A stretch of DNA of 64,000 nt from Polytrichum commune (lineage: Eukaryota; Streptophyta; Polytrichopsida; Polytrichales; Polytrichaceae): assembly GCA_950295325.1 (NCBI GenBank), contig OX485806.1:45131169-45195168 (forward strand), given 5' to 3'. Positions 22,507-52,400 of this stretch are shown piece after piece. The position numbers were made by a program, and so were the translations under genes. How positions within the stretch are numbered: the first letter of the stretch is position 1; each line of letters starts with the position of its first letter. A model generated the notes under the pieces. The model was given only the letters and a program-made list of their open reading frames with translations. It ran no database searches and was not told the origin of the DNA.

Positions 22507-23204
22507 TTAAAATGTTATAAACGTTAAATTGAAATGTGGGCACCATATTGGGCTCACATAACTGGCGACATCAGGGGATGGATCCAAAATCTCTTTCTGC
22601 AAGAAAATTGTCGCTTGCAGATCCCCGCCAGGTTGCATGCGCTTAACCAAGTCGACCCCACTACCAGGGCTAACCTCCGACATCTTGAAAACAAAAACTT
22701 TGTCCGTCTCGTCACCCTGGCCTGGGAATTGATTATGCTGGACATAGGCCCAAGTGTTGACACCTCTAAGCTTGGCGATGCCATCCATAACTCCCAACCT
22801 ACGTAAGTATTTGAAGGGTGTAATCTTGTTTCGGAGGTGGGGGGAATTCAACTCCTTGCACCGATCAAAAATGGGCTAAGTTCTTCCAACGAAAGAAGTT
22901 GATGAGGGTCACTATCATTACGAAGGAGGAACTCACCCACAAGATTTTTGCTGGCTTCAAGAACAATTTTGGTATGAGTGGATTGGGGCGTTCTCTTGAC
23001 GTGCTCCTCGATGAAGACGTCGATGCGCTTGCGGCTATCTCTCCAGTTGCCAACCTTGACGGGGTGCCGATGGTAGCCCAGATGAATACATGCACGCTGA
23101 GTGGTGTCACTGCCGCGGACGTAGAAGATTTTGGCGTGGCATAGAGCAATGCAACTGGGAGGCTCCTTACAGATCCTACACACTAGGGTGGAGAAGGTAG
23201 GCAC
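22507..23204 (-). pseudogene. Transposase-like N-terminal fragment
   Basis: Two adjoining minus frames, 23204-22848 and 22851-22507, read as one protein interrupted by a frameshift near 22850. The first has a Cys-rich opening (LVCRICKEPPSCIALCHAK), then FYVRGSDTTQRACIHLGYH followed by RHPVKVGNWRDSRKRID. This HLGxHxHPV arrangement recalls the zinc-binding N-terminal region of plant Mutator-type transposases. The second has KYLRRLGVMDGIAKLRGV, a WAYVQ.NQFPGQGDE segment and VFKMSEVSPGSG. The fragment stops at the edge of the CT-rich block, so that block may have interrupted or replaced the catalytic part. The protein looks genuine because motifs and composition continue across the frameshift. 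The family name is tentative. Confidence 0.5.
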
Positions 23205-23470
23205 GGGACCACCAATGGGAAAGGACTCTTTGGTGAATCCATCAAATTCAGTATCATTGACTCAGGAGGTACAATGAAAACGTTGGAGGTAGTCGCAATG
23301 ACGATTATGGCACTCGAGGTGGCCAACTCAGGTGGATGAACAAAAAGCAAAGGCTAAGTCATTGCTAATGTTGGTGGTTTGGATTTTGGTCCAGACATGG
23401 CTGTCGTAGCGTTTGTCCATGCCGTCCATTGACCCGATTCCGAGAGGGTGGTGGAGGGGTAGGATTTTGC

Positions 23471-23692
23471 TGTGGGACCTAGTTTTGAATGGGCATAACT
23501 TCCTCAATACTTTCGTGAATGTTGCAAGTGAGTAGTCCATTGACATCTACAAGAAATGTAGATGAAGATGGAGTGGTCGTTTGTTAGAATCAAAGATTGT
23601 ATGAGGAAGTTATGATGGTCTGAAGTTTGTACGGGCTTCTAGGCCTACCGGCTAAGGGAAAATGTATACTTGGCCCCAACTCTTGGTAGGGA
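23471..23692 (-). repeat. LTR-like spacer segment, first copy of a 546-bp duplication
   Basis: The segment from TGTGGGACCTAG to TTGGTAGGGACC is repeated almost exactly at 24017-24240, an offset of 546 bp. Its reverse complement is clearly related to 41276-41490, an LTR-like block that has a TATA box on its plus strand. The copies inside array A are therefore minus-oriented pieces of the same retroelement sequence. Confidence 0.7.
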
Positions 23693-24016
23693 CCCTCTCG
23701 GTTCCGAGAGGGTGGTGGAGGGGTAGGATCCCCACATCAAATTTTGCTTTGCGACCTAGGTTTGATGTATGTGTGATGTTTTTGTATGTGTAGATGATAT
23801 GTCACATAGACACCCTCTCGGAACCGAGAGGGTGGTGGAGGTGTAGGATCCCCACATCACATTTTGCTTTGGGACCTAGGTTTGATGTATGCGTGAGATT
23901 TTTGTTTGGGTATATGATATAGGAGAGTATATGTTTGTGTATATGATATGTCACATAGACACCCTCTCGGAACCGAGAGGGTGGTGGAGGGGTAGTATCC
24001 CCACATCAAATTTTGC

Positions 24017-24240
24017 TGTGGGACCTAGTTTTGAATGGGCATAACTTGCTCAATACTTTCGTGAATGTTGCAAGTGAGTAGTCCATTGACATCTACAAGA
24101 AATGTAGATGAAGATGGAGTGGCCGTTTGTTAGAATCAAAGATTGTATGAGGAAGTTATGATGGTCTGAAGTTTGTACGGGCTTCTAGGCCTACCGGCTA
24201 AGGGAAAATGTATACTTGGCCCCAACTCTTGGTAGGGACC
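24017..24240 (-). repeat. LTR-like spacer segment, second copy
   Basis: Nearly identical to 23471-23692, with a few differences such as TCCTCAATAC versus TGCTCAATAC. It is bounded by palindromes on both sides, so the duplicated module is palindrome plus LTR fragment. The right-hand palindrome has a damaged left arm. Confidence 0.7.
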
Positions 24241-24853
24241 CTTGTTAGGGTTCCGAGAGGGTGGTGGAGGGGTAGGATCCCCACACTTGATTTTGATCAT
24301 TTGAGCTAGGTTGCTTGTATGTGTTGAATGATTATTGGTGCAGATAATATGTGCAAGTTAAGGAGTCTGGTAGTATAAGGAGGCCAAATCTTGATTAGTT
24401 AGGTTAGGTTGAAAATAATTTCAAGTTAAGAGGTTGGGACATATAGAGACATATATAGGATCTTCACACCTGATTTTGATTGTTGAGGCCGAGAAGCTAT
24501 TATGTAGAAAATGTTTGTAATCCTTGATTTAGTTACAAGGTAGGGGATTGGGTGCGCCTTAGACCCTCTCGGTTCCGAGAGGGTGGTAGGGATAGTATAT
24601 GTGAACCTGATTTTAGAATGTTAAGGCCGAGATGCAGGTATGTGTTCCATGTTTGAAACTCGTTCAACTAGTTAAGAGGTAGGGGGTTGGGTGCAACTAA
24701 GACCCTCTTGGATCCGAGAGGGTGGTAGGATAGTATATGTGGGTTATATTTCTGATTGTTAAGGCCGAGATGTTGGTATGTATTCCATGTTTGAAACTCG
24801 TTCAACTAGTTAAGAGGTGGGGGTTGGGTGCAACTTAGACCCTCTCGGTTCCG

Positions 24854-24898
24854 GGACAACACTCCTATGTGAGCGGTGAGCGGAGATTTAAAGAGCGG
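24854..24898 (+). repeat. 45-bp gag 3'-end fragment inside a palindrome
   Basis: The palindrome starting at 24839 is split after its CCG. A 45-bp insert reading GGACAACACTCCTATGTGA and continuing with GCGGTGAGCGGAG separates it from the closing AGAGGGT at 24899. The insert matches the last codons and GAGCGG tract of the gag-like ORF (20226 onward and 45617). Confidence 0.65.
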
Positions 24899-25788
24899 AG
24901 AGGGTCTAAGTGGCGGTTGTTTGGACCAAATTTTGACTTGAATGGGTTGTAATATAGATGTGTATATATCTGGAATAGATAAATTCATATGTTGAAATCC
25001 TTTTGAGTTGCACTAGGATCCGACCCTCTCGGAACCGAGAGGGTCTAGGTGGCGGTTAATTGGACCAGATTTTGACAAGAATGAGTTGTAATATGGATGT
25101 GTATGTATGTGGACTACATAGACTCATATGTTGAAATTCTTTTGGAATGCACTAGGATTCGACCCTCTCGGAACCGAGAGGGTCTAGGTGGCGGTCGATT
25201 GGACCAGATTTTGACAAGAATGAGTTGTAATATGGATGTGTATGTATGTGGACTACATAGACTCATATGTTGAAATTCTTTTGGAATGCATTAGGATTCG
25301 ACCCTCTCGGAACCGAGAGGGTCTAGGTGGCGGTCGATTGGACCAGATTTTGACAAGAATGAGTTGTAATATGGATGTGTATGTATGTGGACTACATAGA
25401 CTCATATGTTGAAATTCTTTTGGAATGCACTAGGATCCGACCCTCTCGGAACCGAGAGGGTCTAGGTGGACCAACTTTTGACAAGATTGAGGTGCCTTGT
25501 GTATGTGTATGTATGTGGACTAGGTAGGTTCCTTTGTAGAAATTGTTTGAGTATGCCCTAGAGTTCGACCCTCTCGGAACCGAGAGGGCGTAGGTGGTGG
25601 TTGTTTGGACCAGATTTTGACTTGAATGGGTTGTAATATGGATGTAAATGTTTGTGGACTAGCTAGGTCCATATGTTGAAATTCTTTGGGAATGCACTAG
25701 GATCCAACCCTCTCGGAACCGACAGGGTCTAGCTGACGGTTGTTTAAACCTAATTGTGCAAAATCTGGTGCTTCATTACTACACCAAA

Positions 25789-27387
25789 ACCCTCTCGGTT
25801 CCGAGAGGGTGAAATTCTAGCCCCAAAACAAACCAGTTGAACCTAAGAACAAACTAGTTGGAACTATCCACACATACAAGCTAACAACCTTATTGTGCAA
25901 AATCTGGTGCTTCATTACTACACCAAGACCCTCTCGGTTCCGAGAGGGTGAAAATCTACACCACAAACAAACTAGTTGAACCTAACGACCAACTAGTCGA
26001 ACCTATCCACACATACAAGGTAACAACCTTAATGTGCAAAATCTAGTCCTATATTACTACACGGAGACCCTCTCGGTTCCGGGAGGGTGAAATTCTAGAC
26101 CACAAACAAACTACTTGAACCTAACGACCAACTAGTTGAACCTATCCACACATACAAGCTAACAACCTTATTGTGCAAAATATGGTGCTTCATTACTACA
26201 CCAAGACCCTCTCGGTTCCGAGAGGGTGAAAATCTAGACCACAAACAAACTACTTAAACCTAACGACCAACTAGTTGAACCCATCCACACATACAAGCTT
26301 TCAACCTTAATGAGCAAAATATGGTGCTTCATTACTACACAAAGACCCTCTCGGAATCGAGAGGGTGAAATTATAGCCCCAAAACAAACCAGTTGCACCT
26401 AACGACCAACTACTTGAACCTATCCACACATACAAGCTAACAACCTTAATGTGCAAAATCTGGTCCAATATTACTACACAATGACCCGAGAGGGTAAAAT
26501 TCTAGACCAAAAACAAACCAGTTGAACATAAGAACAGACTAGTTGGACCTATCCACACATACAAGCAAACAACCTTATTGTGCAATACCTGGTCCTATAT
26601 TTCTATCCTAAGACCCTCTCGGTTCCGAGAAGGTGGAATTCCAACACACATACAAGCTTTCAACCTAAATATGCAAATTTTGGTCCTATATTACTCCTTG
26701 AAGAACCTCACGGTACCGACAGGTTGAAAATCCAGCCCAAAAACAACCCCGTTGAACATATGAACCACCAAGTTCAACCTATGTCCACAAACAACCTTTC
26801 AACCTTAATGTTCAAAATCTCTTGCTTCATTACTACACAAAGACCCTCTCGGTTCCGAGAGGGTGAAATTCTGGAACACAAACAACTAGTTGGACCTAAC
26901 GACGAACTAGTGCACCTCTCCACACAAACAAGCTAACAACCTTTATGTGCAGAATCTGGTCCCATATTTCTATCCTAAGACCCTCTCGGTTCCGAGAGGG
27001 TGAAATTCTAGCCCACAAACAAACTAGTTGAACCTAACGACCAACTACTTCAACGTAACCAAACAATGAAGCTATGAACCTTCAAAAATAAAATCTAATC
27101 CTTGACACCTATACTAAGACCCTCTCGGAACCGAGAGGGTCTAATTCCAGCCACCAAGCACACTAGTTGAGCCTAACAACCAACTTGTTGAACCTATCCA
27201 CACATACAATCTAACAACCTTAATGTGCAAAATTTGGTGCTTCATTACTACACGAACACCCTCTCGGTTCCGAGAGGGTGAAATTCCAGCCGTAGAACAA
27301 ACCAGTTCAACCTAACAACTAACACCCTTAGTGTGCAGAATGTAGACCTTTACTTCTATCCAAAGACCCTCTCGGTTCCGAGAGGGT
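25789..27387. repeat. Internally inverted block of array A
   Basis: In this block the palindrome centre is nearly always TT. The spacer (CACACATACAAGCTAACAACC, TGTGCAAAATCTGGTGC) is the reverse complement, in diverged form, of the spacer in the flanking blocks (ACCAGATTTTGAC, GTATGTGGACTAG). A run of about a dozen units is therefore inverted within the array. The switch points lie near 25750 and between 27390 and 27500. Confidence 0.75.
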
Positions 27388-27689
27388 GAAATCCTTGCCC
27401 ACAACAAACTAGTTGAACCTATGAACCACCTAGTTGAATCTATCCAAACATACAAGCATTCAAACTTAATGTGCAAAATCAATTCTTATATTTCTATCCT
27501 TAGACCCTCTAGGAACCGAGAGGGTGTAGGTGGCGGTTGTTTGGACCAGATTGTGGGAATTATGTATGTGGACTAGGTAGGTACTTAGGTTGAAATTTTT
27601 TTGTGTGTGCATTAGAGGGAGACCCTCTCGGAACCGAGAGGGTCAAGGTGGTGATAGTATGGACCAAATTTTGCCAAGTGTAGGGCGGC

Positions 27690-28332
27690 CTCATGGAGTG
27701 CACTATTCATTAAAACCAAGTATCACGTGCGTGCATGCCCCTTATTAAAATACCCCTGTATACATTTTATTTTTGCTAAAATCAAGCAATATACTTACAA
27801 ATCTCATTGCTTCAAAATACATTTCCATACGTACACAAGGGTCCAAAACCAAATACAGAAATTGTATATAACATGTGTACAAATGTTTGGAAATGCAAAA
27901 ATATGGCCCTATTATATGTATACTATCAAATCATGGATTTTTAGTTATAAAGTCGTTAAAGACTTTTTCATCACTTGGATGAAGTTCGTACGTGTCTGTT
28001 TCAACATCATACGTCAAATTGGCCAAAGCAATAACCGTATCCAATTCTACCATAATATGATCTGTGAGATCATAACTCCAAATAAGGTTGTTACTTAGTG
28101 GATGAAAAAACGCATGATTCTTGGTCTAGGTCTAACTTGAACACGTAAACGCATAAACCCGTACTTTACATATATTTTTCTATAGCCTTATCTCCAGCCT
28201 CATGTACATCTACTTCCTGCTTAATAGCAATATGTCTCTTGTACGTACATTTTGTACATGCTTGTTCTAAATAATACCCCATTTGTGCACGCACGTGTAT
28301 ATTTACAGTACTTGAACAGTGCACTCCCTGGA
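27690..28332. mobile_element. TIR element with 8-bp target duplication, inserted in array A
   Basis: The target duplication AGGGCGGC flanks it at 27682-27689 and 28333-28340. Uninterrupted array units read TTAGGGCGGCTTG at this point, so the insertion site is certain. The ends are CTCATGGAGTGCACTATTCA and, in reverse complement, TCCAGGGAGTGCACTGTTCA. Imperfect similarity extends inward to an ACGTGCGTGCA motif at both ends. 8-bp duplications and CA.GG-type ends fit the hAT superfamily. Inside, on the minus strand at about 28098-27946, is a remnant coding WSYDLTDHIMVELDTVIALA and YELHPSDEKVFNDFI, which is the same protein as in the element at 55684-56391. Confidence 0.85.
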
Positions 28333-30705
28333 AGGGCGGCTTGTGTATGTGAATGTATGTGGACTAGGTAGCTACTTAGGTTGAAATTTTTTGTGTCTGC
28401 ACTAGAGTGAGACCCTCTCGGAACCGAGAGGGTCTAGGTGGTGATAGTATGGACCAGATTTTGGGAATTATGAATGTGGACTAGGTAGGTACTTAGGTTG
28501 ATATTTTCTTGTGTGTGCACTAGAGTGAGACCCTCTCGGAACCGAGAGGGTCTAGGTGGTGATAGTATTGACCAGATTTTGACAAGTTTAGGGCAGCTTG
28601 TGTATGTGAATGTATGTGGACTAGGTAGCTACTTAGGTTGAAATTTTTTGTGTCTGCACTAGAGTGAGACCCTCTCGGAACCGAGAGGGTCTAGGTGGTG
28701 AAAGTATGGACCAGATTTTGGGAATTATGAATGTGCACTAGGTAGATACTTAGGTTGATATTTTCTTGTGTGTGCACTAGAGTGAGACCCTCTCGGAACC
28801 GAGAGGGTCTAGGTGGTGAAAGTATGGACCAGATTTTGGGAATTATGAATGTGCACTAGGTAGATACTTAGGTTGATATTTTCTTGTGTGTGCACTAGAG
28901 TGAGACCCTCTCGGAACCGAGAGGGTCTAGGTGGTGATAGTGTTGAACAGATTTTGGGAATTATGTATGTGGACTAGGTAGGCACTTAGGTGGAAATTTT
29001 TTGTGTGTGCACTAGAATGAGACCCTCTCGGAACCGAGAGGGTCTAGGTGGTGATAGTATGGACAAGATTTTGGGAATTATGAATGTGGACTAGGTAGGT
29101 ACTTATGGTGAAATTTTTTGGTGTGTGCACTAGAGTGAGACCCTCTCGGAATCGAGAGGGTCTAGGTGGTGATAGTATTGACCAGATTTTGACAAGTTTA
29201 GGGCGGCTTGTGTATGTGAATGTATGTGGACTAGGTAGGTACTTAGGTTGAATTTTTTTTTGTGTGCACTAGAGTGAGACCCTCTCGGAACCGAGAGGGT
29301 CTAGGTGGTGATAGTATTGGCCAGATTTTGACAAGTTCAGGGTGGCTTGTGTATGTGAATGTATGTGGACTCCCAAGGGACTTCGGTTGAAATTGTTTGG
29401 GTGTGCACTAGAGTGAGACCCTCTCGGAACCAAGAGGGTCTAGGTGGTGATAGTATGGACTAGATTTTGACAAGTTTAGGGTGGCTTGTGTATGTGAATG
29501 TATGTGGACTAGGTATGTTCTTAGGTTGAAAATGTTTGTTTGTGCACTAGAGTGAGACCCTCTTGGAACCGAGAGGGTCTTAGTGGCGAATGTATGGACC
29601 AGATTTTGACAATTGTGAGGTTCCGTGTGTACGTGTATGTATGTGGATTAGCTAGGTTCATATCTTGAAATTCTTTTGGAATGCACTAGGATCCGACCCT
29701 CTCGGTTCCGAGAGGGTCTAGGTGGCGGTTGTTTGGACCAGATTTTGACTAGAATTGGGTGCCTTGTCTATGTGTATGCATGTGGACTAGATAGAACCAT
29801 ATGTTGAAATTCTTTGGAAATGCACTAGGATCCGAGCCTCTCGGTTCCGAGAGGGTCTAGGTGGCGGTTGTTTGGACCAGATTTTGACAATAATAGGTTG
29901 TAATACGGATGTGTATGTATGTGGACTGGGTAAGTTCATATGTTGAAATTCTTCTGGAATGCACTAGTGTCCGACCCTCTCGGTTCCGAGAGGGTCTATG
30001 TGGCGGTTGTTTGGACCAGATTTTGACAATAATGGGTTGTAATATGGATGTGTATGTATGTGGACTAGGTAAGTTCATACGTTGAAATTCTTCTGGAATG
30101 CACTAGTGGCCGACCCTCTCGGAACCGAGAGGGTCTAGGGTGCAATTGTTTGGACCAGATTTTGACTAGAATTGGGTGCCTTGTCTATGTGTATGCATGT
30201 GGACTAGATAGAATCATATGTTGAAATTCTTTGGAAATGCACTAGAATCCGACCCTCTCGGCACCGAGAGGGTCTAGTGTGCGGTAGTTTGGACAAGATT
30301 TTGACTTAAATGAGGTTCCTTGTGTATGCGTATGTATGTGGTCTAGCTATATTCATATGTTGAAATTCTTTGTGTATGCACTAGAATCCGACCCTCTCGG
30401 GACCGAGAGGGTGTTGCTTGCAGTATTTTGGACCAGATTTTGACTAGAATGAGGTGCCTTTTCAATGTGTATGTATGTGCACTAGTTAGGTTCATATGTT
30501 GAAATTTTATTGGAATGCACTAGAGTCCGACCCTCTTGGAACCGAGAGGGTCTTCCTTGCGGTATTTTTGACTAGATTTTGACTAGAATGAGGTTCCTTT
30601 TGTATGTGTATGTGTGTGGACTAGCTAGATTCATATGTTGAAATTCTTTGTGTATGCACTAGAATCCAACCTTTTCGGACTACGTTTATGTTTGTGTTAT
30701 CTTAG

Positions 30706-33110
30706 TTTGAGAAAGGGGTTGAGGGTGAGATCGCCTCATTTGAAAATGAATGCTTCATCGACATTGACTGGGTTTCTATGGAAGATCTTTTCCAACCTGT
30801 TTATTTTGTCGAGCATTGAAGGCTCATTTTGTGAAACAAGGCTTGTAGAGTATATTTTGATGACAAGGGTGTCTTAAAGTTCACCAAAGGGCTCGATCTC
30901 ATGGAGTTCGAGGAAGGCCCCTTAGCTATCAAGCGTGTTGCTTACCGGTAATCATTTTTTCTTTTTCTTTTGTCCTTCATATCTTCGTTTCTTTTCACTC
31001 CATTTCTTTGTTCTAATTTTCTTCACTTTGTAGGTACATTCACCATGAGCTTGTCGTAAAGAATGCTCTTCCTTCTTCGTCCTTGACGTCTTTCCTTGAC
31101 GAGTGGATCGATGACAACTCAAATCTTAGTGTATACACGCCCATGCAACTTGAAAAATTTCCACGCGTGCATTTAGTCGCTGGTGGTTGGTGCTTGGATT
31201 GTTCTCGTGGATTTGTTCATGACGTAGAAGAACCCCTCTACAATAGCCTCACTTCCTCTGTCCTGAGGTAATTGAATTGGAGGAAGAGCCGGAAAAAGAT
31301 GAGAATCCGGCTCCTCCCACCAATGACAAAGAGGTTGCACCGGTGAAGGCCAAGGCCAAGGCCAAGGCCAAGGCCAAGGGTAAGAGGGTGGCATCTAGTT
31401 AAGTGTCCACTCGTTCAACGCATTCCAACTACGACAGTTGTCGGAAGTCCAATGGCAACTCCTTCTGCCCCTTCTCGGGACCATGTTCCAGCTCTTTCCC
31501 ATAGCGGTGTCACCATTTCCTCCGTGCCATGCAAGAGGAAGGCCGTCGCTCCAGATACCTCCGCAACTTCTCTCTCTTTGATTAAAAATGTCCACATGGG
31601 GAGCTCATAGAGGATCTCATGCGGTCCAAGGTTCCCCCTCCGGCTTACCGCCGTATCCAAGAATTCCTTACTAAGGTTTGTGGGACATTCTATTGTTTTC
31701 TCGTTCATTCATTCTAATTCAACAATTATTTTCTTATATTTTCCTTTGGATTTTGGATTTGCAAATTGGAGCGGGTCGTACTCGTCCTAATAGCAAGCCT
31801 AAGGTGCATACAGGGCTTGATCTACTCCTCGCAGATATGCCGGAGAACCTTTGTGTGTCTGGCATCTTGTCATCATCGTCCGATGTTCCTATATGGAACA
31901 AGCGTTCTTCGACTTATTTTGAGGTTCTCTTTACCTTTGCTAACGCCAACCTTCATGACGACGACATTCTTGTCTTTGCACATGCCGCTGATCCTGACGT
32001 GTCTAGATCCATACATAACTGGGCACATACAGAGGACTTCTACGTTGCCGAAGACTGGTTTGGCATGAATGACCTCGATCTCCAATCGCATACTAATCCA
32101 CCCGAGTTGGTAATTTCTTTCTTGCCTCATCATTTTGTATTATTATCTTCTTTTCCTTGCATTTTTGTATTCCTAATTCTACCCTTCTCATTTCTTGCAG
32201 ACTCGCAAGTTCTTCATCAAGGTGCTCGTGCGTAATGATTCTGTTTTGAATGTCCGGACCTCGACCTTCAAAGACATGGGTTACAATCTCAAGAGAGATG
32301 GTTGGCTCAATAGCTTCCCCGATTCGAAGAACTAGTCGGTGAGGGAAGACGGAGTGCCTTGGAGAGGTGCTCGTCAAAAGCGCCCTAAGTTATTTTCCAT
32401 CATTTTCTCCGCCCTCACTGACAATGACGACATTATCATGGATTGGCAATGTGGCCTTAGATTGTTTTTCTTTTTCTTGTTTCTCATGACTTTGTTCTTT
32501 GTTGTTTTTTTTTACTTGTTTCATTTCCCATTAATTCCCTTATGCTCACCTTCTCGTATTTCGTTCTTCTAGGAGGTTCCGTCATTGCATGTTGATCCAT
32601 TCAACGCCATATTATGGCGCTTGAGTCGGATATCGATATCTTCAAGTCCATCATCTTCCCTATGCGTGAGACTGAGCAAGAACACACTTATCAGCATGCT
32701 GCCCCACAACGAGGATTGGTTTTTGCTCCTCCTCCCCGGAAGATGGTGAAGCGCAATTTTAATTTGTTATGTGCGTAAGTTTGTTCTTGGCTTCTTACTT
32801 GCTTGCTTGCATTTCTATCTTCTCGATTCCAGATTTTTGGCATGTGTTAATTTTTTTTGTTTTCTCGTTCTATATTTTCAAAGTTCATATTGAGAGCCCG
32901 ATTGGTGTTCTTAATGCGGACATGTTTGCAACCCCTTCGACGACGTTTGAGCTCCCTTCGTATGCTGCTGACCTTCCCCATCTTTTGGCGGAAGCGTCGT
33001 CCCCACCTCCTAGTCACACCCGCCCTTTCAACAAACTAGTTTTGGATTTCCTAGACATAGAGGCCGAGCAGGGCGAGGATAGTGATAGACATGGTAGTCC
33101 AAGTTTTTGA
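30706..33110 (+). pseudogene. N6/N4 DNA methyltransferase-like gene, intron-containing, broken
   Basis: Exons can be followed with good splice sites: 30706-30947, intron 30948-31033, then 31034 onward with a Lys/Ala linker (KAKAKAKAKAKG). Another donor (AAG|GTTTGT) lies at 31675. The exon from about 31772 to 32109 is followed by an intron at 32110-32200. The exon from 32201 is followed by further exons to TGA at 33108. The 31.8-kb exon has GLDLLLADMPENL at the place of the catalytic D-P-P-Y motif IV, then DDDILVFAHAADPDV. The next exon has WRGARQKRPKLFSIIFSAL followed by NDDIIMDWQCG, then GSVIAC and RHIMALESDID. This matches the permuted order (catalytic motif before the AdoMet-binding G-motif) of the beta-type N6_N4 methylase family. 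In-frame stops at 32332 and 32593 and frameshifts near 31262 and 31400-31600 show it is dead. The altered DMPE motif also suggests loss of catalysis. Confidence 0.65.
31349..31381 (+). repeat. Hexanucleotide repeat (AAGGCC)n
   Basis: Five to six tandem AAGGCC units code for the Lys-Ala linker of the methyltransferase-like gene. It is a likely hotspot for length change. Confidence 0.8.
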
Positions 33111-33322
33111 CTACGCCTCGTGCGTTTATGTTTGAGTTTTTTTATAAGTTCATTTGTGGAATTTTCATGTGCCTTTTGCAAACCACATTCAACTCCTTCT
33201 TCATCTTATGTTGTCGTTTGTTTTCAATTGCTCTTGAAGGTTGAAGGCTTGTATTAATTTTGTACATATGTTCAACTACTTGGTTGATAGATTCAACTAC
33301 TTTGTTGTTTGGCTGAAATTTG

Positions 33323-33720
33323 ACCCTCTCGGAACCGAGTGGGTCTTAGTGTAGGAATCAAGGACGAGATTTAAGATAGGTTCGGGTGGATGGGGTTGTA
33401 TCTTTTTTGGTTAGGTTGATATTTCTCAAGTTAAGGTGTTGGGCAATGTAGGGACCCTGTTGGTTCCGAGAGACTATATGTGTGAACCGCATTCTCAACT
33501 TTGATTCATATGATGAATCTTTTTGTTTTTTGGATGCTCTCACTTCGGAAGTGAGACTAGATGCGTAGGCCAGATTCTCAACTTTGATTCATATTAAGAA
33601 TGTTTCTGTTTTTTTGGATGCTCTCACTTCCGAGAGCCTAGATGGATAGGCCACATTCTCAACTTTGATTCATATGTTGAATATTTGTGTTTTTTGGAGG
33701 GCTCTCACTTCGGAAGTGAG
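33323..33720. repeat. Array tail with altered palindrome
   Basis: A near-perfect family-1 palindrome starts at 33323 and a damaged one near 33454. Three following units, with spacer TCTCAACTTTGATTCATAT at about 33493, 33569 and 33655, carry a different dyad instead. At 33539 and 33701 it is TCTCACTT-CGG-AAGTGAGA, and the copy near 33621 is a hybrid. The sequence after the dyad (CTAGATGGGCAGG) corresponds to CTAGGTGG in the main array, so the units are homologous although the palindrome itself has changed. Confidence 0.7.
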
Positions 33721-34429
33721 ACTAGATGGGCAGGCCAGATTCTCATTTAGGCCACATTTATTTGGATTCTCATTTTTTAACTGGATACACATTTTTGTAA
33801 CTCTTGAGTTTGACACCTAACTTCACCTACATTTTCTCGGCCAATCAAATATTTTGTAAAACATTCCGCTCCTTCATCAGAAGGTCTAAGAATACTTGGA
33901 AAGAATACCCTAGCTACTTGGGGCAATGTATCACTTTGGACAAAATCATTTAAGAACACTTAAGTACATTTAAGGGCTACTTCACACACGAGCCAAGAGC
34001 TGTGACCATGAATTGTGAGAGCCCACGAGAAGGTGTCCAAAGGCCGTCCCAAGACACCTCCAAAATTATGTAGTGTGGTCACGGATTTTCAAGTCTAGTA
34101 TGAAGCCATATGTGACCAGGCCCTCATTCAAATGCTATTTCAATGGATTTCTATTCATGTGAGTCTTCACACATGATAAAAACAAAATAAATCAACGGTT
34201 GTGAATATTCAAAATGATAGGGTCTTTTGATTTTGTGTTAGGCCTACCTCCCAAAGGTGGATTCTTATGTTGTTGTTCGATTTCAATTGATGACATCAGC
34301 CCTAATTTAATATGAAACCATTTGAAACCTAGACTATAAGATCTTTGATAACAAATACATTCTTCCACGCCTTTAGGTTCTACTTGTTTCTCGAACCAAG
34401 ATGCGTTATAATCTCCACGGGAATGGGGT
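33721..34429. other. Non-coding with one minor minus frame
   Basis: A 60-codon minus frame (33959-33777, with LPQVARVFFPSILRPSDEG) looks somewhat protein-like but belongs to no family I recognise. It may be a relic exon. Otherwise nothing is supported. Confidence 0.2.
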
Positions 34430-34575
34430 GCCTTTCCAACAAATTGAATTCACTCTATCTATAAATTCCACGGAAATAGGCACCGCTTGTCCTAAAATTA
34501 TCCAACAAAGTCAAAATTTTCTGCTCTCCAATCTCCGCTCTCCGCTCTCTGCTCTACGCTCACACTACTAAGTTT
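34430..34575 (-). repeat. Repeat R1, diverged inverted copy
   Basis: TTCCACGGAAATAGG and the tract CTCCGCTCTCCGCTCTCTGC correspond in reverse complement to the 3' segment of the gag-like element at 20226-20480. Confidence 0.5.
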
Positions 34576-36528
34576 CGCATTCGAAGGAGGGAGCAGCTTA
34601 GAAGAAGCACCGCTCTTCTTAGCTTAGGACGGTAGTTAGATTAGTTAGGCAGAATAGAGATAGGAAGATAGGACTTAGGAGTTTTGGGAAGTTGAGGAAT
34701 AAAATTCTCCCTTGGATTTTGTCAGCGGAAAATCGGGATCTTGATCCGGGAAATCCGGGAGGATGGAACCAGTTAGGGTTTTTTTAGGGGCCGCCGCCTT
34801 CAGATAAGGGATTTTGGGCCTCTACTTAAGGCTGAATAAGGAGCTGGATAGGGGTTCCTTCTCCATTGTTGTACTTTGATTGCTCCAACTCTAATATACT
34901 CCTTGATTTCTCACTCCTTGACTTTCCTTGATTGATTTTGTGTACGAATGATTCGGAGATCGTTAGCGGAGGAGAGAGAGCATGAGGGGATAGGAGTTCC
35001 GGATAGGACATGGGAGAAGAGACCCGGATCAGATCTAGTGCCTTGCGAATCCTCTCTGTGGGTAGTGGGAGGGAGACCTCACTATTCCGGATGGTTGACT
35101 AACGTCTAGGTGGGATAGCCGCTGGGAGGATAAGGTGAGATCCGGAAGGGATCCGGACTTGCGCCGTCCGAGCTTCTAAAGAGGTCCCACCGCCCTTAGA
35201 CGGACCAATCATGAAAGTGGTACGGATCGCCCAGTTAGCTCAGATTTAGTAGAGCCCAAGGTAGTGGTAGCCGGATCAATCTGTTAGGAGGAGGAGGGAA
35301 GTACAGGAACAGTTAGAATTCCGGGTCGGAGGCCATCTCCGGAGTGTAGTGGGAAGGGGACCTCATTGTTCCGAATGTCTGGGTAACGTCTAGGTGAGAT
35401 AGCCGTGGGGAGGACTGGGTAAAGATCCGGAAGGGATCCGGTCTTGCGCCAATTTGATCTTCTGAAGAGGTCTCACTGCTTTTGGACGGGACAATCCGGA
35501 AAGTGGTACAGATCACCCACTTATCCCCTCGAGTCAAATCTCCGGGTGGAATCCGGAATACTCCAGTCGTTGTAGTCCTAAGATATAATCCGGATTTCCC
35601 TGTGTGACCTACCAAGACGGATTTGGCCAATCCGGATTGGTTGAAAGGGAATATCCAAATCCCAATCTTATAAGGGACGTCTTCACCGGAAGAAACCAAC
35701 TATTCTAGAGGGTAGAACGTAAAGGGGTAAATCTGGACCATAGGGGTGAGTAAGTATTATAATTAGGACCTAAAGATACAATCCGGAAAGGCAAACTCCG
35801 GAAGAGGAAGAGTTTCCAAAAGACCGGAAAGCCGGAAACCGGGGTTTCCGGAAATTCGGCTAAGGAGTGGAAGATAAGTGGGTACGGGGAGTTCTCGACC
35901 TCCTACACTTCACAAAATCCCTGGACAATACTAGGGTCATCCGGACAAAACCGGATTAGGCACTTAAAAACGCCAATCCGGATATTTTGGTGTTCGTGTG
36001 TTCCCACAAATCACATACGTGAGCAATAGCGCAAAGCAAGTAGGCTTAGTGATTCATTGATGTGGGAGCCGGTAAATGCCCGGAAGTCCGGATTAACAGC
36101 CAAACCGGTCTTTAGAATAGGAATAGGTAGTCTATTTTGGTTAGGTTAAGGGAATTTAGGATAGCTTAGCCGTTTTAGGAAATCACTTTTTGCACGTCCG
36201 TCCAATCGCAATAATATGGTTAAAACGGCCCTCTTAGCCTAGCCGGAACCGTACCGAAAATACCGTTAAATAACTGCTTGCTCCGAAGCAACCGGAATGA
36301 TGGCAGTTGTACGGGAATAGGGCGGTTACCGTAAACGGTTACCCTAGGCGGTTACGGGCCGAACTCGAGGAGGACGGGCCCACTTAAAGGAAATCAGCCC
36401 TCCCCTTGAGTCATTTGCGTAGTGCAACTGTGCCGAGAGAAAGAATGGTGAAGTGTTTTCTTTTTGTCGAATCATCAGCAATTGGATTGCTGAGATTATG
36501 CTTTAGGACGGATAGGAATTAATGCACA
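34576..36528 (+). promoter_or_regulatory. Upstream region of gag-like copy 2, TCCGGA-rich, with internal duplication
   Basis: No gene is supported. TCCGGA and CCGGAA recur throughout, as in the gag-like coding regions. A ~285-bp direct duplication is visible. GTAGTGGGAGGGAGACCTCA followed by AACGTCTAGGTGGGATAGCC (from about 35061) matches GTAGTGGGAAGGGGACCTCA followed by AACGTCTAGGTGAGATAGCC (from about 35346). Each copy ends in a GTGGTAC(A/G)GATC.CCC motif. Near 36190-36360 there is a cluster of MYB-core motifs (CGGTTACCGTAAACGGTTAC) followed by a leader like that of copy 1. The whole may be an LTR. Confidence 0.45.
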
Positions 36529-37780
36529 ATGCCGGAAGTGCGGGAGGATGAGGATCTTGTTCCGATTCCTCTTAAAAATGTAGCGCCTGCCATTCCGACT
36601 CGGGAATCAGAGCTGAATGAGCTGATAAAGGACCTCACCTGGATGGATGCGAGGGCCTTCTGGCGAAGCCCTGGAATTTGCGGAGCGAGGCCACATTGAG
36701 GGAATTTTTGTCGGAGAGAGGGAATCAGTGGGAGAGGACAATGCGGCTGGTTCCGAAACAGTGGACTGCAGAAGCTTGGGTTGATGTCTATGGGTTCGCA
36801 CCGAGGAGGGGCGAAGGGTGGGCAAACCGGAAGGATACCTATTTTGTACGGAAATTCAGAACGGAGCATGATCCGAAGGATGGGTTCCATCCGGGAGATT
36901 GTCGAAAGCCTAGGGAGCGTAGGGTAATAGAATTTCTCCTCCCTATTCTCTACCCGGAGAAGCCCAAGAGATTGAGCATCACCATGGCCAATACCATCTT
37001 CGGAACACGGCCGGTCAAGTGGGGGCGACTCATCTAGGAATTGGGGGAGAAGTCGATCCTCCACATCAGAAAGAAACCCTCTCCCCTCTCCTGTACATTC
37101 TGCATCTCTATCAGCAGAATGGGTGCGTTAAGGAAGAAGAGGAGGATGCCTTAACAATTGCAGAGGACGAGGTCGTCTATAAACTTGGGCTGGAGGTTGA
37201 GTTGACAGAAGCCGGAACAGAAGAGTCATTGAGCAACCATGTCGTCCCTGAGCCGCCTCCTGTCGCACCCACCCCCGAAGCAAGAAGAGCGGCCACTCCT
37301 CAGCCCCGAACCGAAGTTGGCCCAAGCAGGGAGCCGCACTGGAGGGACATTGACCTGTCCTCCTTCGAATATCCGGAGACCCCCTTCAAGCGAGTCCGGG
37401 AGGAGCTGACCCACCTCCAGAATCATTATTTCTGGCTAGAGCATATTACCTTGGGCGTAAGCAGGGCATTGGATAACTGCGGAACCGGAAATATCCTTCG
37501 GGAACTGGCTAAGAAGACGGACACGTCAAAAGTGGACACACTGGAGACTGAGAAGGCACAATTGGCCGCGCAGATGGCACCATTGACTCTGGAGCTTGCG
37601 CACAAGAGCGAGGAAGTCCGCCGCTACTAGGTGGAGTAGAAACTGGTACTGGACCGGGTCCGGGAGCTGGTCGGATATCCGGGAGAGACCGTCAACAAAA
37701 CCCACCTATACGACAAACTCGTGGAAACGGCGAATCCCTCCTCAGCCCGGCACACCTTGCAGATTTTGGTTAAGTACTCC
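36529..37780 (+). pseudogene. Retroelement gag-like protein, copy 2 (5' part)
   Basis: ATG at 36529 opens MPEVREDEDLVPIPLK, the counterpart of the copy 1 start. After a frameshift near 36680 it reads TLREFLSERGNQWE, DPKDGFHPGDCRKPRERR, FLLPILYPEKPKR and MANTIFGTRP. A second shift near 37025 leads to YILHLYQQNGC, EEEDALTIAEDEVVYKL, PETPFKRVREELTHLQ and the coiled-coil segment KVDTLETEKAQLAAQMAPL, to a stop at 37630. The frame then continues as VRELVGYPGETVNKTHLYD up to a MITE at 37781. Motif order and spacing follow copy 1, with substitutions favouring similar residues, so both descend from a functional protein. The Ser/Pro-rich C-terminal half of copy 1 is missing. Confidence 0.55.
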
Positions 37781-38343
37781 CACGGGTAGGTCACTTAGTG
37801 CATTTTAAAAACGACGTGCGGCATAATATAGAGAGGATTAAAATCATTTGAAATTAAAATTATAAAGGAATTCCAAATAATGAAGGGGCCATTAAATGTA
37901 GACAATCCCATTATAAGTAAGTTAGATGGACATAAAATGTGGGCCATTATTTTTTTGTAAAATTAATATAGGGGCTGAAGATAAGGATCCTAGAAGGTAT
38001 GTTTAGTATGTTTTCTATGGTCTCCTATGTGTTTTCTTCATAACTTTGTTTGCAATGATATTATTGTTTGCACCCTTCTTTGTTTCCATGGTTTCCCTTA
38101 ACACTTGTCAATGCGTTAGGAAGTAGATTAGCTTTTATTACTTAAAAAGAATATAGAGTACAAAAAATTGGAGTGACTTGGACAATATAAGTAATGGAAG
38201 GGTGCAAACAAATGGGCCATTTTTGAAATTTAAGTAATTATAGGGAGGCTTTAATTCAACCCTTGAAGGTAAATAGCCCCAAAACAAAAAAAACCCCTAG
38301 CCGCACGTGGTGCACAAAAATGCCTTAGAGTGACCTACCCGTG
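37781..38343. mobile_element. hAT-type MITE, 563 bp, with 8-bp target duplication
   Basis: Ends are CACGGGTAGGTCACTTAGTG and, in reverse complement, CACGGGTAGGTCACTCTAAG. Further matching sequence reaches GACGTGCGGC and CCACGTGCGGC. The 8-bp duplication AGTACTCC is at 37773-37780 and 38344-38351. Removing the element and one duplicate joins the gag-like codons into KYSRSMIDLL, which aligns with KYSRTMKDLL in copy 1, so the insertion is proven by the paralog. CA..GGG ends and an 8-bp duplication indicate hAT. No transposase is inside. Confidence 0.9.
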
Positions 38344-38390
38344 AGTACTCCAGGTCAATGATAGACTTGTTGAAGGAAATTTAGAAGCTC
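38344..38390 (+). pseudogene. Gag-like copy 2, remnant beyond the MITE
   Basis: Codons for SMIDLLKEI continue the copy 2 frame past the MITE and then meet an in-frame TAG. Similarity to copy 1 ends about 38390, just before the direct repeat that borders array B. Confidence 0.6.
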
Positions 38391-38403
38391 CTGCCCTTGC
38401 GCT

Positions 38404-38505
38404 GTTGCAACCCTTGCTAGTCTCCTTAGCAATTTTGCCAATTTTCCTTTCTAGCAAAGGTTACGAGCGCAAATCCTTCGCATTCCACCATACTAATGGT
38501 TCATA
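38404..38505 (+). repeat. Direct repeat bordering array B, left copy
   Basis: GTTGCAACCCTTGCTAG and onward through CCAATTTTCCTTTCTAGCAA and GGTTACGAGCGC to ACTAATGGTT recurs at 40850-40947 on the other side of array B, in the same orientation. Confidence 0.8.
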
Positions 38506-38519
38506 CTATCACCACCTAG

Positions 38520-40753
38520 ACCCTCTTGGTTCCGAGAGGGTTTCACTCTAGTGCACACCCAAACAATTTCAACCGAAGTCCCTTGGGAGTCCACATACAT
38601 TCACATACACAAGCCACCCTGAATTTGTCAAAATCTGGCCAATACTATCACCACCTACACCCTCTCGGTTCCGAGAGGGTTTCACTCTAGTGCACACACA
38701 AAAAATTTCAACCTAAGTACCTACCTAGTCCACATACATTCACATACACAAGCCGCCCTAAACTTGTCAAAATCTGGTCAATACTATCACCACCTAGACC
38801 CTCTCGATTCCGAGAGGGTCTCACTCTAGTGCACACACCAAAAACTTCCACCATAAGTACCTACCTAGTCCACATTCATAATTCCCAAAATCTCGTCCAT
38901 ACTATCACCACCTAGACCCTCTCGGTTCTGAGAGGGTCTCACTCTAGTGCACACACAAAAAATTTCCACCTAAGTGCCTAGCTACCTAGTCCACATACAT
39001 AATTCCCAAAATCTGTTCAATACTATCACCACCTAGACCCTATCGGTTCCGAGAGGGTCTCACTCTAGTGCACACACATAAAATTTCAACCTAAGTACCT
39101 ACCTAGTCCACATACATTCACATACACAAGCCGCCCTAAACTTGGCAAAATTTGGTCCATACTATCACCACCTTGACCCTCTCCATTCCGAGATGGTCTC
39201 CCTCTAATGCACACAAAAAAAAATTCAACCTAAGTACCTACATAGTCCACATACATTCACATACACAAACCGCCTTAACCTTGTCAAAATTTGGTCAATA
39301 CGATCACCACCTAGACCCTCTCAGTTCCGAGAGGGTCTCATTCTAGTGCACACACAAAAAATTTCAACCTGAGTACCTACCTAGTCCACATACATAATTC
39401 CCAAAATCTAGTCAATACTATCACCACCTAGACCCTCTCGGTTCCGAGAGGGTCTCACTCTAGTGCACACACATAAAATTTCAACCTAAGTACCTATCTA
39501 GTCCACATACATTCACATACACAAGCCGCCCTAAACTTGGCAAAATTTGGTCCATACTATCACCACCTTGACCCTCTCCGTTCCGAGAGGGTCTCCCTCT
39601 ATTGCACACACAAAAAATTTCAACCTAAGTACCTACCTAGTCCACATACATTCACATATAGAAGCCGCCCTAAACTTGGCAAAATTTTGTCCATACTATC
39701 ATCACCTTGACCCTCTCCATTCAGAGATGGTCTCACTCTAATGCACACACATAAGATTTCAACCTAACAACCTACCTAGTCCACATTCATAATTCTCAAA
39801 ATTTGTTCAATACTATCACCACCTAGACCCTCTCGGTTCCGAGAGGATGTCACTCTAGTGCACACACAAAAATTTCAACCTAGGTACCTACCTAGTCCAC
39901 ATACATTCACATACACAAGCCGCCCTAAACTTGTCGAAATCTGGTCAATACTATCACCACCTAGACCCTCTCGGTTCCGAGAGGGTCTCACTATAGTGCA
40001 CACACATAAGATTTCAACCTAAGTGCCTACCTAGTCCACATACATAATTCTAAAAATCTCTTCAATACTATCACCACCTAGACCCTCTCGGTTCCGAGAG
40101 GGTCTCACTCTAGTGCACACACAAAAAATTTCAACCTAAGTACCTACCTAGTCCACATACATTCACATACACAAGCCGCCCTAAACTTGGCAAAATTTTG
40201 TCCATACTATCATCACCTTGACCCTCTCAGTTCCGAGAGGGTCTCACTCTAGTGCACACACAAAAAATTTCAACCTGAGTACCTACCTAGTCCACATACA
40301 TAATTCCCAAAATCTGTTCAATACTATCACCACCTAGACCCTCTCGGTTCCGAGAGGGTCTCACTCTAGTGCACACACATAGAATTTCAACCTAAGTACC
40401 TGCCTAGTCCCCATACATTCACATACACAGTCCGCCCTAAACTTGGCAAAATTTTGTCCATACTTTCACCACCTTGACCCTCTCGGTTCCGAGAGGGTCT
40501 CCCTCTAATGCACACACAAAAAATTCAACCTAAGTACCTACCTAGTCTACATACATAATTCCCAAAATCTGTTCAATACTATCACCACCTAGAGCCTCTC
40601 GGAACCGAGAGGGTCTCACTCTAGTGCACACACATAAAATTTCAACCTAAGTACCTACCTAGTCCACATACATTCACATACACATGCCGCCCTAAACTTG
40701 GCAAAATTTGGACCATACTATCACCACCTAGACCCTTTCGATTCCGATAAGGT
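38520..40753. repeat. Palindrome satellite array B
   Basis: Eighteen units of the family-1 palindrome, almost all with a TT centre, start at 38520, 38659, 38798, 38916, 39037, 39176, 39315, 39432, 39571, 39710, 39827, 39965, 40082, 40221, 40338, 40477, 40593 and 40732. Spacing alternates between 138-139 and 116-121 bp. The short units lack a ~21-bp piece (between CATACATTCACATACACAAG and CCGCCCTAAACTTG). Spacer sequence is the reverse complement of the 28412-29588 part of array A, so the two arrays form a long-range inverted repeat. The unit at 40593 has an AA centre in an otherwise TT array. Confidence 0.95.
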
Positions 40754-40849
40754 CTCATTCTAGTGCACACCAAAAAATTTCGTCATAAGTACCTACCTAG
40801 TCCACATTCATAATTCAAAATTTGGTTTCTCCGGGTTGTCTCCCTATCT

Positions 40850-40947
40850 GTCGCAACCCTTGCTAGCCCCTTAGCAATCTTGCCAATTTTCCTTTCTAGC
40901 AAAGGTTACGAGCGCTAACCCTTCGCATACCGCCATGCTAATGGTTA
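40850..40947 (+). repeat. Direct repeat bordering array B, right copy
   Basis: Matches 38404-38505 over about 95 bp with a few differences (TAGCCCCTTAGC versus TAGTCTCCTTAGC). Confidence 0.8.
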
Positions 40948-40999: not shown

Positions 41000-41880
41000 T
41001 TTGCTTTTGGGACTCACCCCTTAATCGGTAACCCATTCCTAGATGTGGACCTCCATCCATGGAAGTACAATCCTATGTTGATCATCACGTTGCCGTAGCA
41101 ACACTACAACAACCCGAAGCGTACTTGGCAACTATGGCCTCACATTGGGCCAATGCCCATGGAGGCCGTGACGTTTGGCCTCGGGTGGGTGAGGCCACAC
41201 CACCTCACCCATATAAGCCCCTAAGACTCTACGCGGGGCCCCTACCCCACTGTCAAGAGACCTCTTGTCTCTCTACCAAGAGTTGGGGCCAAGTAGACAT
41301 TTTCCCTTAGCTGTTGGGCCTAGAACCCCCCCAGCAGCTTCAGACCATCATAACTTCGTTGTATGATGTCAAATGCTAACAAGCGACCACTCCATCTTCG
41401 TCTACGCTTCACGTAGATGCCGATGGACTCCTGAATTGCCCCATTTAGGCAAGTATTGAGGAGGTTATGCCTGTTTGAACCTTAGCAGTCCCAGGAATCA
41501 CACCCAGGCACTGCTGTACCAGGGCGCTGTCCCGGGACAGCGCCCCACTCAAATGGTCATAACTCCTAGCTCACACCTGCAATTGAGGTCTTCTTGAGCG
41601 TTCTAGAATCACCATGCCATGAGCTATGCATAGCTCTTGGCCTTACCCTCATGCCTCCTAGTCTCCGTGGGTGGGAGGCGTTCCCAACGCCCGGGGCCCT
41701 CACCCACACTAAGATCACTTGGGCCCTCTCACCAACGGCGCCACAAGTCCCGGGTGTCACTCCGGGGTCCCCCTTGTGCCCGTGGTGTTTCGGGCACTCC
41801 TCATGGAGAGGTGCGCGACACTCACCCCCACTAAAAATGCTTAACCGGATGTTTTTGTCGATCATGTGTTCCAACAATTT
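41000..41880 (+). promoter_or_regulatory. LTR-like block downstream of array B
   Basis: GC-rich sequence with a TATA box (ATATAAGCCC at 41211), then CT-rich sequence. The segment CAAGAGTTGGGGCCAAGTAG through CATCATAACTTC to CGTAGATGCC corresponds in reverse complement to 23471-23692. Several open frames on both strands at 41566-41902 carry no domain and are treated as chance. I read this as an LTR or its U3/R part that belongs to the same element as the arrays. Confidence 0.45.
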
Positions 41881-49317: not shown

Positions 49318-49444
49318 ACAATTTGACTAGTTTAATGATATGATCCAATAAAGAATTTTGCATAAAACATGAAGACGATGCATTATGGAAAAAGACGAAA
49401 GACGAGAACAAGATTGTAAGGAGAATGTGCTAAAGGGTACATTT

Positions 49445-52400
49445 GCGAACGCTCGTTCGTGAATGAAGGCCAGAAATGGCGAGGTGCATAATTCACGAAT
49501 GCTTGTTCGTGAAAGAAGGCCAACAGTGACCAAGCGCATCATTCACGAACGTTCGTTCGTGAATGATCCTTATAGTACATTTACGAACGGAGTCGCGTGA
49601 AGGAGATGGACGCGGGGTCACATCCTTTTACGAGCATCCGTTCGTGAACGAGGCAGAATTGCACAAGCAAGCAAACCTGCATGAACATACACAATACAAG
49701 AAATGCGAGACGATACAAAGTGTGTGCGATTCGATGCAAAACTCATTTCATAATATGAATTCCGTAAAAATTTACAGTTTGTCTCATATGATAATCTATC
49801 ACACAGGTTCCTAAGGCAAGAGGATGCCGTGTCCTACAAAACTGATCGACCTAAGGTAGTTCGCAAAAATGGGCTCTCAGAGGTCTCGGATGTCGATGCA
49901 GACAACGCGCCAAAAACACAACGCAGGTGGTTAGAGATGTTACTAACGCACGTTTGTCAATGCATGTGGTATTCTCAGAGATGAGGCAAAGAGTCAATCA
50001 TATACGAACGCGCGTTCGTGAACATCAAGGCTATGAGTGAGGCAATAATAACAAAAAAATTCACAAAAGAATAATACATGCCGGTTGCCTAAGATTGAAA
50101 GTTGTAGCATGCAGTGTTTACGAACGAGCATTCGTCAAAAATGTTGGGAGATGGCTGACCATGGCAGCGTACATAAATTTGCTGCCCCCAAAGACGTTGT
50201 TGACAATCTTGCCATTCATTGCCAAACCCTGCAATATGGAGAAGCAGAACTCCATCCTCAACTCCAGCACTGGGAAGACGATGTACAATGTCGCCTGGAA
50301 GAGATCATTTGGAGGGGGGTGAAAGATGCTGTAGATCTTCTTGAACGTGTTGATTGCCTTGATGAGTGTTTGCCCATTCCTAAGCGCATTGTACGTCAAG
50401 AAGATGAGGCTCACCGCTCCCACCTGTTTGTTGCCCCTCGCCTCGTTGATGGCCACAATCCCTTCCGTCTTCGCGGGAACGTATAGGCTGTGGAAGATGT
50501 TGTACTCGAACTTGATCGTGTTCTCGTACAAATCGGTGACGACGAAGAGTTTGTCCTGCTCCACAATCCACAGCCATACGTCTGGTGCCCTCATAGCTGG
50601 CGATTTGTGCTCCATGAATTTTGCCATGAAGGGGTTGTGAAAAGGCTCCCCCGTCGCCCCTGTCTTGAGGCACCTGGGATCCCCCTGAAATTGAGGACCG
50701 CAAAGGGACAACCCCTTTGGTCCTCCCTGACCTCGGCCCTGCTCATGGTGCCATCCCACTTGGAAAACGTGGTCCTCTCCAGCCCCGTTGTCACCACACA
50801 AAATCTTGCCACGCCCTCGAATGTGGCGTTCCTCTTCCTCTCCAAGAAGGAGCACATCGCTCCATACTGCGCATCGAGGCACCGTTGATGTTGTACAACG
50901 CCTTGAACTCCTTCCATTTCGCCTAGTTAACATCGCCGTTGGCATGGAAGAGGTGCATCTCAAGCAAGAGTCCACTAATCTCCCGCATGGCAGCGGTCTT
51001 CAGCTTCCTGTGGTTGCACCACTCTTTGATTGAGTACGTGCCGGGCTTGTGCTTTGGTCTCTTCAAAAATATCTTGGGATAAAGGATGGTCCTTCCCACG
51101 GTGTTCCCAAGAATGTGCACTGCACAACGCTGCAATTCTCACTCTGTCAGTCCTTACAGGGCCCTGAAAATTTCCCTTAGTAGAGGCGGGGTTTCTTCGC
51201 TCTTATCATTGCTGTACTTCTCTTCAATGTCGGGGTTCACTAGATCACCCGAGCTGTGAGCGTCAAAAAACTGGGTCCACAACTCCCAGGTGTCTCTGTT
51301 GCAGCAAATCAGACGGAGCTCACCTTTGAGCTCCATAACTGATTTGGTGCTCGTGGGCTTCATGTCGATGGAGGAGAACTTGTCCACCATCGCATCACAG
51401 AACGCCTGCAACATACATACAAGGATGTCAATGTTCAATATCAAATATGAAAGCACGTTCGCAAGTTGGCAACTTTTCAAAATTTTGAGTGCAACATATA
51501 CTTTATGAACGCTCGTTCGTAAACTCACCTTCCATTGTGGAGATTGGATCTTTGCGTTCTCCCTCTCTTTTGGCAGGCATCCATGCGCGACCCACACATC
51601 TCTGGCCGCCACTATATTCTCCGCCCACGAGGCCTCGAATGCCTTGATCTTGTTTCCATAATTCAAAAATGTAGATATTTTCCGGAGTTTGTCCCAGTAG
51701 AGCAGGTTCACCTTGAGCTCGTGTTAGAAGTTATCGTCCTTGAGGATGATTTGTGACGCCTCCAGACTGTGTTGTCCATCGATAATCCAGAACTCTTCAT
51801 TCCAGATTCGGGACCAATCCTTCTCATTGGGACGGGACGACATGCCCTTTGGCATTACGCAGACGGTCTGCCTATCAAACTTCACGTTGTTCATGAGGTT
51901 ATTTATTTGCCACTTCACGCCCCTGCTCTCACGAGACCTAACCACCCACTTGTTGGGGGATTTCTTGCACTTGAAGCAGTCCACGTTGAAAATGAAGTGG
52001 CGTCCCATGGGCCAGCAATCCTTTGAGTAGTTGTTGAAGTCTCTCAAGATTTTTGTCATTTTTGCAGCGTCCGGATTTTCTCCCTTCTTCAAAAGGGTTG
52101 GCATCACTGGCGGCGAATTCACCTCAGCGCCCTCTGTCACTCCATACTTCTCCATGTCATCCCTCGACCTCTTGGCCCTTCGGTCAACCTGCTCCCTGAA
52201 GGCACTGGCCTGGGAGCACTTCTGGAACCTCTTGCCCTCGAACCAGATGGTTTTCTTGGACTCTTCTTTCTTTTATTGGCCTCAACGGCCACACTGTTGA
52301 ACTTCGAAATATTTAAAGTGAGGGCGGTTAACTTCCTCGCCGTCCAGTGTTGGCTCAGGGCGTACTTGGTGAAAAGAGCATCCATATTGAAATGTTTCGC

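Follow-up and report, generated by a model that had tools for sequence, protein, structure and literature searches.

VANC proteins of the VANDAL transposons bind short motifs packed in noncoding tandem repeats, and the motifs differ between related families (sections of PMC5735166). The subterminal repeats of CACTA transposons differ between families and are described as sites of a TNPA-like protein (excerpts of PMC2613891), and the repeats of the foldback-like element Galileo add transposase sites (excerpts of PMC4079207). In yeast, a palindrome in SPO75 with 11-bp arms flips its 2-bp spacer between AA and TT by template switching, and quasi-palindromes undergo arm homogenisation, with inversions solely where the arms exceed 9 bp (passages of PMC8604942). 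We analysed one locus, a window of 64,000 nucleotides from Polytrichum commune (contig OX485806.1), in which a short dyad recurs in two arrays separated by an interval that holds a pseudogene. Judging from the DNA, we consider it somewhat probable that the arrays are noncoding parts of a broken DNA-transposon-like element and that the dyad is the site of a dimeric, probably element-encoded protein.

Conservation of the dyad arms in the left array

The repeated site reads ACCCTCTCGG-NN-CCGAGAGGGT, with two 10-bp arms around a 2-bp centre. The sequence-only reading of this stretch had called it a 22-bp perfect palindrome; the palindrome proper is 20 bp long, its halves are 2 bp apart, and a search with abutting arms gave no match. 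At up to 3 mismatches, 58 copies were found, 33 of them exact, compared to none in 100 shuffles, which places the existence of the dyad far above chance. The more than 60 copies of that reading are reached at up to 6 mismatches, where 65 sites spanning 23,428-40,753 were found, degraded copies included; at up to 3 mismatches the number falls short. The commonest spacing was 139 or 117/118 bp. As had been proposed, the sites form two large arrays, at 23,432-30,678 and 38,503-40,830. The left array comprises the blocks W, X, A1, B (inverted) and A2, and the right array is termed R (Table 1).

Units could be aligned for 52 of the 65 sites, after exclusion of block ends and of spacers outside 85-130 bp, and the divergence of arms and spacers was compared by permutation over alignment columns. 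The arms diverged far less than the spacers between A1 and B (0.021 vs 0.526), A2 and B (0.026 vs 0.509) and A1 and A2 (0.025 vs 0.255), as well as within B (0.022 vs 0.227) and within A2 (0.029 vs 0.227), with p = 0.0002 in each of these comparisons. The same was observed within A1 (0.020 vs 0.146, p = 0.003) and between A2 and R (0.069 vs 0.206, p = 0.0008). Within R, the values were 0.100 for the arms and 0.109 for the spacers (p = 0.42). The dyad had been proposed to be better conserved than the spacer in both arrays. That proposal, for which an alignment of all units had been suggested as the check, stands for the left array, where the rates were unequal, and was too wide for the right one, where they were equal and preferential conservation was lacking.

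Comparison with 97 spacer windows of 20 columns gave the same picture. In blocks A1, B and A2 (31 units), all 97 windows stayed below the arms in conservation (0.847 vs 0.987), whereas 42 of 97 windows equalled or exceeded arm conservation in the right array. Because the unit selection had lost some degraded left copies, arm mismatches were recounted over all undeleted copies, 42 on the left and 18 on the right; outside this recount were one truncated copy (23,428), one at a breakpoint (24,839) and two that indels had broken (near 24,237 and 26,481). The arms carried mismatches at 16 of 840 positions on the left and 20 of 360 on the right (Fisher p = 0.0013), and were perfect in 29 of 42 left copies and 6 of 18 right copies. 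Age does not explain this difference, because the right spacers are no more diverged from their consensus (0.069) than those of the left blocks (0.078-0.133). The constraint on the arms is local to the left array. In the flanks of six representative copies, W and X had no obvious similarity to the others beyond the 22 bp, A1 and A2 retained a common part of the 3' flank, and B and the copy at 33,323 did so to a lesser degree. An array with constraint and one without, built from the same unit at one locus, provide a built-in control for selection on the repeat.

Centre flips and replaced dyads

Read in the orientation of the array, the centre of the 65 sites was AA in 49, TT in 12, and AT, TA, CA and GA in one each. 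Of the 57 copies that carried 1 mismatch or none, AA occurred in 46, TT in 8, and AT, CA and GA in one each. The centre varies more freely than the arms. The eight well-kept TT sites lay in W, X, B (two), A2 (three neighbours) and R, and because they are spread over these blocks, several independent flips between AA and TT are likely, judged by position in the array and not by a tree. A change from AA to TT by substitution would take two steps, so that intermediates would be expected, whereas inversion of the centre would take one. The observed distribution (AT or TA in 2 of 65 sites) is consistent with spacer inversion between the arms, as in template switching. Alternatively, the flips could stem from conversion between units of opposite orientation.

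Whole dyads also appear to have been replaced in the small S array, whose four units (S1 to S4) have a common spacer. S1 contained a degraded canonical dyad, and S3 was mixed, with a new left arm CTCTCACTTC and the old right arm TTCCGAGAG. S2 (33,538-33,556) and S4 (33,703-33,721) contained a different, perfect 9-1-9 dyad, TCTCACTTC-G-GAAGTGAGA, which consists of the new left arm and its exact reverse complement over nine bases. The step from S3 to S2 and S4 is the order expected if a mutated arm had been copied onto its partner, a direction suggested by these four units; a 3-bp insertion and one substitution would yield the same result. Another perfect dyad was found beyond the right array (Table 1), and ten Markov shuffles of the window yielded two perfect dyads with arms of at least 10 bp.

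Pseudogene, second element and layout of the locus

The interval between the arrays contains the pseudogene, the S array, a gag-like open reading frame (ORF; 36.6-37.6 kb) and other repeats. Relatives of the pseudogene are unnamed proteins of public sources, of which one search returned 21 and another 53 (one duplicate). Its last exons (...DDIIMDWQCG.. GGS.IAC..IQRHI.ALESD...) matched the DNA methyltransferases DpnA (E 0.015; profile 0.0086) and CcrM (E 0.03 and 0.009), and PF01555 (N6_N4_Mtase) matched 7 of 9 relatives (best E 0.017). These matches were below curated cut-offs and fell at the same place of the last exons. In addition, a yeast phosphatase scored level with an N4-cytosine methyltransferase for the last exons (both E 0.11). 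The likeness to the beta-class DNA N6/N4 methyltransferases consists of a weak match over the part that binds S-adenosylmethionine, where the motifs presumably stand in the order expected for this class. The beta-class DNA amino-methyltransferases have the catalytic motif DPPY; in the exon alignment of the pseudogene family, the corresponding stretch reads AD[VIM]PEN (ADxPEN) instead, and the exon that contains it gave no match in the PDB. We suggest with low certainty that the family is methyltransferase-like and likely inactive, and it is a candidate for the binding protein.

A second, different element lies next to the first and has a dyad of its own, TTTACGAACG-NN-CGTTCGTAAA. Its 17 copies compare to 0-3 in ten shuffles; eight lay at one end, seven at the other end and two, one of them weak, in an apparent GT..AG intron (~51,406-51,528). 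At the 16 sites with up to 5 mismatches, majority identity was 0.88 in the arms, 0.62 and 0.44 in the centre and 0.42 in the flanks, where the sites had been picked by their arms and not by centre or flanks. Since two different adjacent elements each own a 10-2-10 dyad, a design shared by both appears more likely than an accident.

Table 1. Coordinates of the features in the window
Feature	Position	Strand	Remarks
Left array, blocks W and X	23432..24850	+	units of 120, 149, ~139 and ~240-280 bp; several broken dyads
Left array, block A1	24898..25742	+	139-bp units
Left array, inverted block B	25747..27500	-	spacers ~50% off A1 and A2, arms ~2-3%
Left array, block A2	27504..30678	+	139- and 117/118-bp units; upstream of the pseudogene
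Insertion in A2, like a miniature inverted-repeat transposable element (MITE)	27690..28332	.	8-bp flanking duplication AGGGCGGC
Pseudogene, multi-exon	30691..33107	+	stops and frameshifts; last exons methyltransferase-like (weak)
Single near-canonical dyad	33323..33344	+	3' of the pseudogene
S array, four related units S1-S4	33450..33770	+	between the two arrays
Right array R	38503..40830	-	18 dyads; inverted relative of A2 in higher-order copies
Inverted homologue of long W spacer (23,492-23,692)	41270..41471	-	80.7% over 202 columns
Perfect 24-bp dyad GGGCGCTGTCCC/GGGACAGCGCCC	41522..41545	.	about at the place of the canonical dyad in the homologous left unit
Second element	49442..53262	-	17 dyads at up to 6 mismatches; gene on the minus strand between the ends

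Since the outermost right unit is an inverted homologue of the W spacer, the region from 23.4 to 41.5 kb was probably once a single element that received insertions. The right array is flanked by 100-bp direct repeats (38,402-38,501 and 40,848-40,946, 91% identity), as if it had been inserted or duplicated together with them. Several spacings in 23432-40753 correspond to 139 bp minus approximately whole helical turns (-10, -11, -21/22, -31), and others do not (-48; the W units differ by 29). Such helical-turn spacings may point to a protein bound along a single side of the helix.

Part of the MITE-like insertion, which we take to be hAT-like from the length of its duplication, resembles 55,688-56,072 (67%). 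The gag-like ORF regions at 18378-20244 and 36621-37627 belong to one family (65% DNA identity), and public protein sets contain relatives of the former with identities of up to 91%. Left of the array, minus-strand frames at 22507-23261 look transposase-like by eye, where Pfam gave just zf-Tnp_2 (E 0.32). The window also contains an inverted repeat of ~0.9 kb (62590-63511, 75.6%) that matches itself in reverse, and a presumably copia-like fragment without confirmation by Pfam. Together with the introns and the style of the repeats, this fragment suggests from the sequence that the host is a plant.

Proposed mechanism, rival explanations and known systems

A bound dimer fits the left array because the arms there are constrained and the 2-bp centre is freer. 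A dimer would recognise two 10-bp half-sites around such a centre. The protein, probably encoded by the element, would occupy many neighbouring sites of the dense array upstream of the gene and might act on the element itself, in the manner of VANC, which counters silencing, or TNPA, which serves excision. The expansion of the right array probably involved no binding role, and its sites would then decay like its spacers. As the dyad can form a perfect hairpin, a template switch between the arms during replication is the likely cause of the centre flips, and occasionally a mutated arm would by the same route give rise to a new perfect dyad, and the element could gain another private site in few steps. 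A much bolder extension, which we think quite unlikely, is a plant element family with private 10-2-10 dyads, each read by its own methyltransferase-derived, catalytically altered protein, in which new dyads come from single hairpin template switches and specificity would leap rather than drift. Hairpin rewriting would give transposons a way to change the private sites of their own proteins, by supplying new sites that are already symmetric. For VANDAL, multiplication of the motif by tandem repeats is described, and the start of a new symmetric motif is not explained in the sections of PMC5735166 used here. Parts of a review state that land-plant transposons lack DNA methylases (PMC6338049). 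Should the gene prove to be related to methyltransferases and the host to be a land plant, the locus would run counter to that statement.

Several results weigh against the reading of a bound, element-encoded protein. The right array lacked preferential arm conservation, indels or a breakpoint have disrupted four copies of the left array, and neither element ends nor a target duplication were found. The gene is disrupted, and none of the protein domains exceeded its curated cut-off; Pfam gave no family for the joined last exons. When relatives were taken with a translated intron, DUF1179 matched 4 of 10 and N6_N4_Mtase 1 of 10, all sub-threshold, and the N-terminal part of the relative P0126 matched INTS15 (E 0.0008), also below the cut-off. 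Neither of two structure models was usable. In the second element, the arms themselves had served to select the sites, and the dyad at 50,117 coincides in part with the end of an unconfirmed ORF.

Symmetry could also be maintained with no bound protein, by hairpin-templated correction at replication that would make the dyads seem conserved. The flips between AA and TT, the series S1/S3/S2 and the yeast precedent of arm homogenisation and spacer inversion (passages of PMC8604942) are in line with it. However, such correction keeps arms alike and does not keep one sequence across units with 50% diverged spacers, and most single-arm changes in the left array stay uncorrected. It should also act in the right array, where 12 of 18 dyads have imperfect arms. 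We therefore rate it as unlikely. The sequence-only reading had raised a bound protein, a structural role as hairpin or cruciform, and copying through the hairpin. Of these options, a bound protein agrees with the constrained left arms and hairpin copying agrees with the flips and the dyad replacement, but such copying is not enough by itself to maintain the sequence, because the right array is without conservation. An ordinary satellite, meaning recent tandem expansion with the dyad kept by chance or local conversion, matches the behaviour of the right array (0.100 vs 0.109) and its higher-order copies. For the left array it is refuted unless conversion tracts measured just 22 bp, as blocks with 50% diverged spacers retain their arms and no spacer stretch does likewise, which leaves it very unlikely overall. 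Transcribed dyads might be selected for pairing as RNA hairpins, acting as a small-RNA source or processing signal, in keeping with perfect 10-bp arms and a 2-bp loop. A 2-nucleotide loop is unfavourable for an RNA hairpin, uncompensated single-arm changes are the rule in the left array and no Rfam family reached its gathering score, so this is highly improbable.

A CACTA-type transposon would be a special case of the binding-site reading, in which a TNPA-like protein would bind the arrays, as subterminal repeats, to bring about excision. The direct and inverted arrays and the 202-bp inverted repeat near the outer edges are consistent with it, as are family-specific subterminal repeats described as sites of TNPA-like proteins (excerpts of PMC2613891). 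However, no CACTA...TAGTG pair with similar ends and an equal 3-bp flank was found at 20-24 and 40.8-44.5 kb. The sole pair with equal 3-bp flanks (22,910/42,471) matched at 8 of 15 end bases, and five pairs with 10-11 of 15 end matches had unequal flanks. Pfam detected no transposase domain, including the TNP2 type, in the ORFs scanned, which were part of all ORFs. Furthermore, the array upstream of the gene is conserved and the far one is not. A CACTA origin is accordingly rather doubtful.

Compared to described systems, the more general reading of a bound, element-encoded protein has its closest counterparts in VANDAL21 and VANDAL6 with their VANC proteins in Arabidopsis, which have in common with this locus a mobile element whose noncoding tandem repeats grow and shrink and are dense in a short motif that differs between related elements (sections of PMC5735166 and PMC10398659). 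Such dense motifs in noncoding repeats were present here, where the noncoding status is judged from the lack of ORFs and the apparent intron. In contrast to the dyad, the VANC21 motif is a 9-bp sequence in one orientation, YAGTATTAY (PMC5735166, same sections), and those sections of the VANDAL literature describe no flipping or dyad replacement. VANC proteins contain DUF1985 and DUF287 (same sources); neither was listed by Pfam when pieces of the gene, its joined last exons and 10 relatives were scanned, although the gene is broken and other copies could differ. The CENP-B box is likewise a short protein-binding motif within a tandem unit, but it is a 17-bp, non-palindromic, mammalian motif, as opposed to the 2-7-kb arrays around a gene seen here (parts of PMC8122249).

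The foldback-like elements Tetris and Galileo have inverted, internally repetitive ends that can grow into satellite-like arrays (excerpts of PMC4079207). Inverted arrays and a 202-bp inverted repeat were also observed here, but ends, duplication and transposase were not found, and a unit centred on a dyad is undescribed for these elements in those excerpts. Template switching at quasi-palindromes is known from single yeast gene loci (passages of PMC8604942), whereas dozens of arrayed copies are concerned here. The CACTA elements En/Spm and Tgm have direct and inverted repeats near their ends that are private to the family and are proposed protein sites (parts of PMC2613891 and PMC8978399). 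Direct and inverted repeats of this type were found at our locus, which differs from those descriptions in that no CACTA ends were found in the flanks searched, in 117-139-bp units with a far better conserved dyad and in the conservation of only one array. We claim membership of neither the VANDAL nor the CACTA group; the target repeats of VANDAL/VANC or CACTA/TNPA are our working analogy, and the arrays of this element may work like them.

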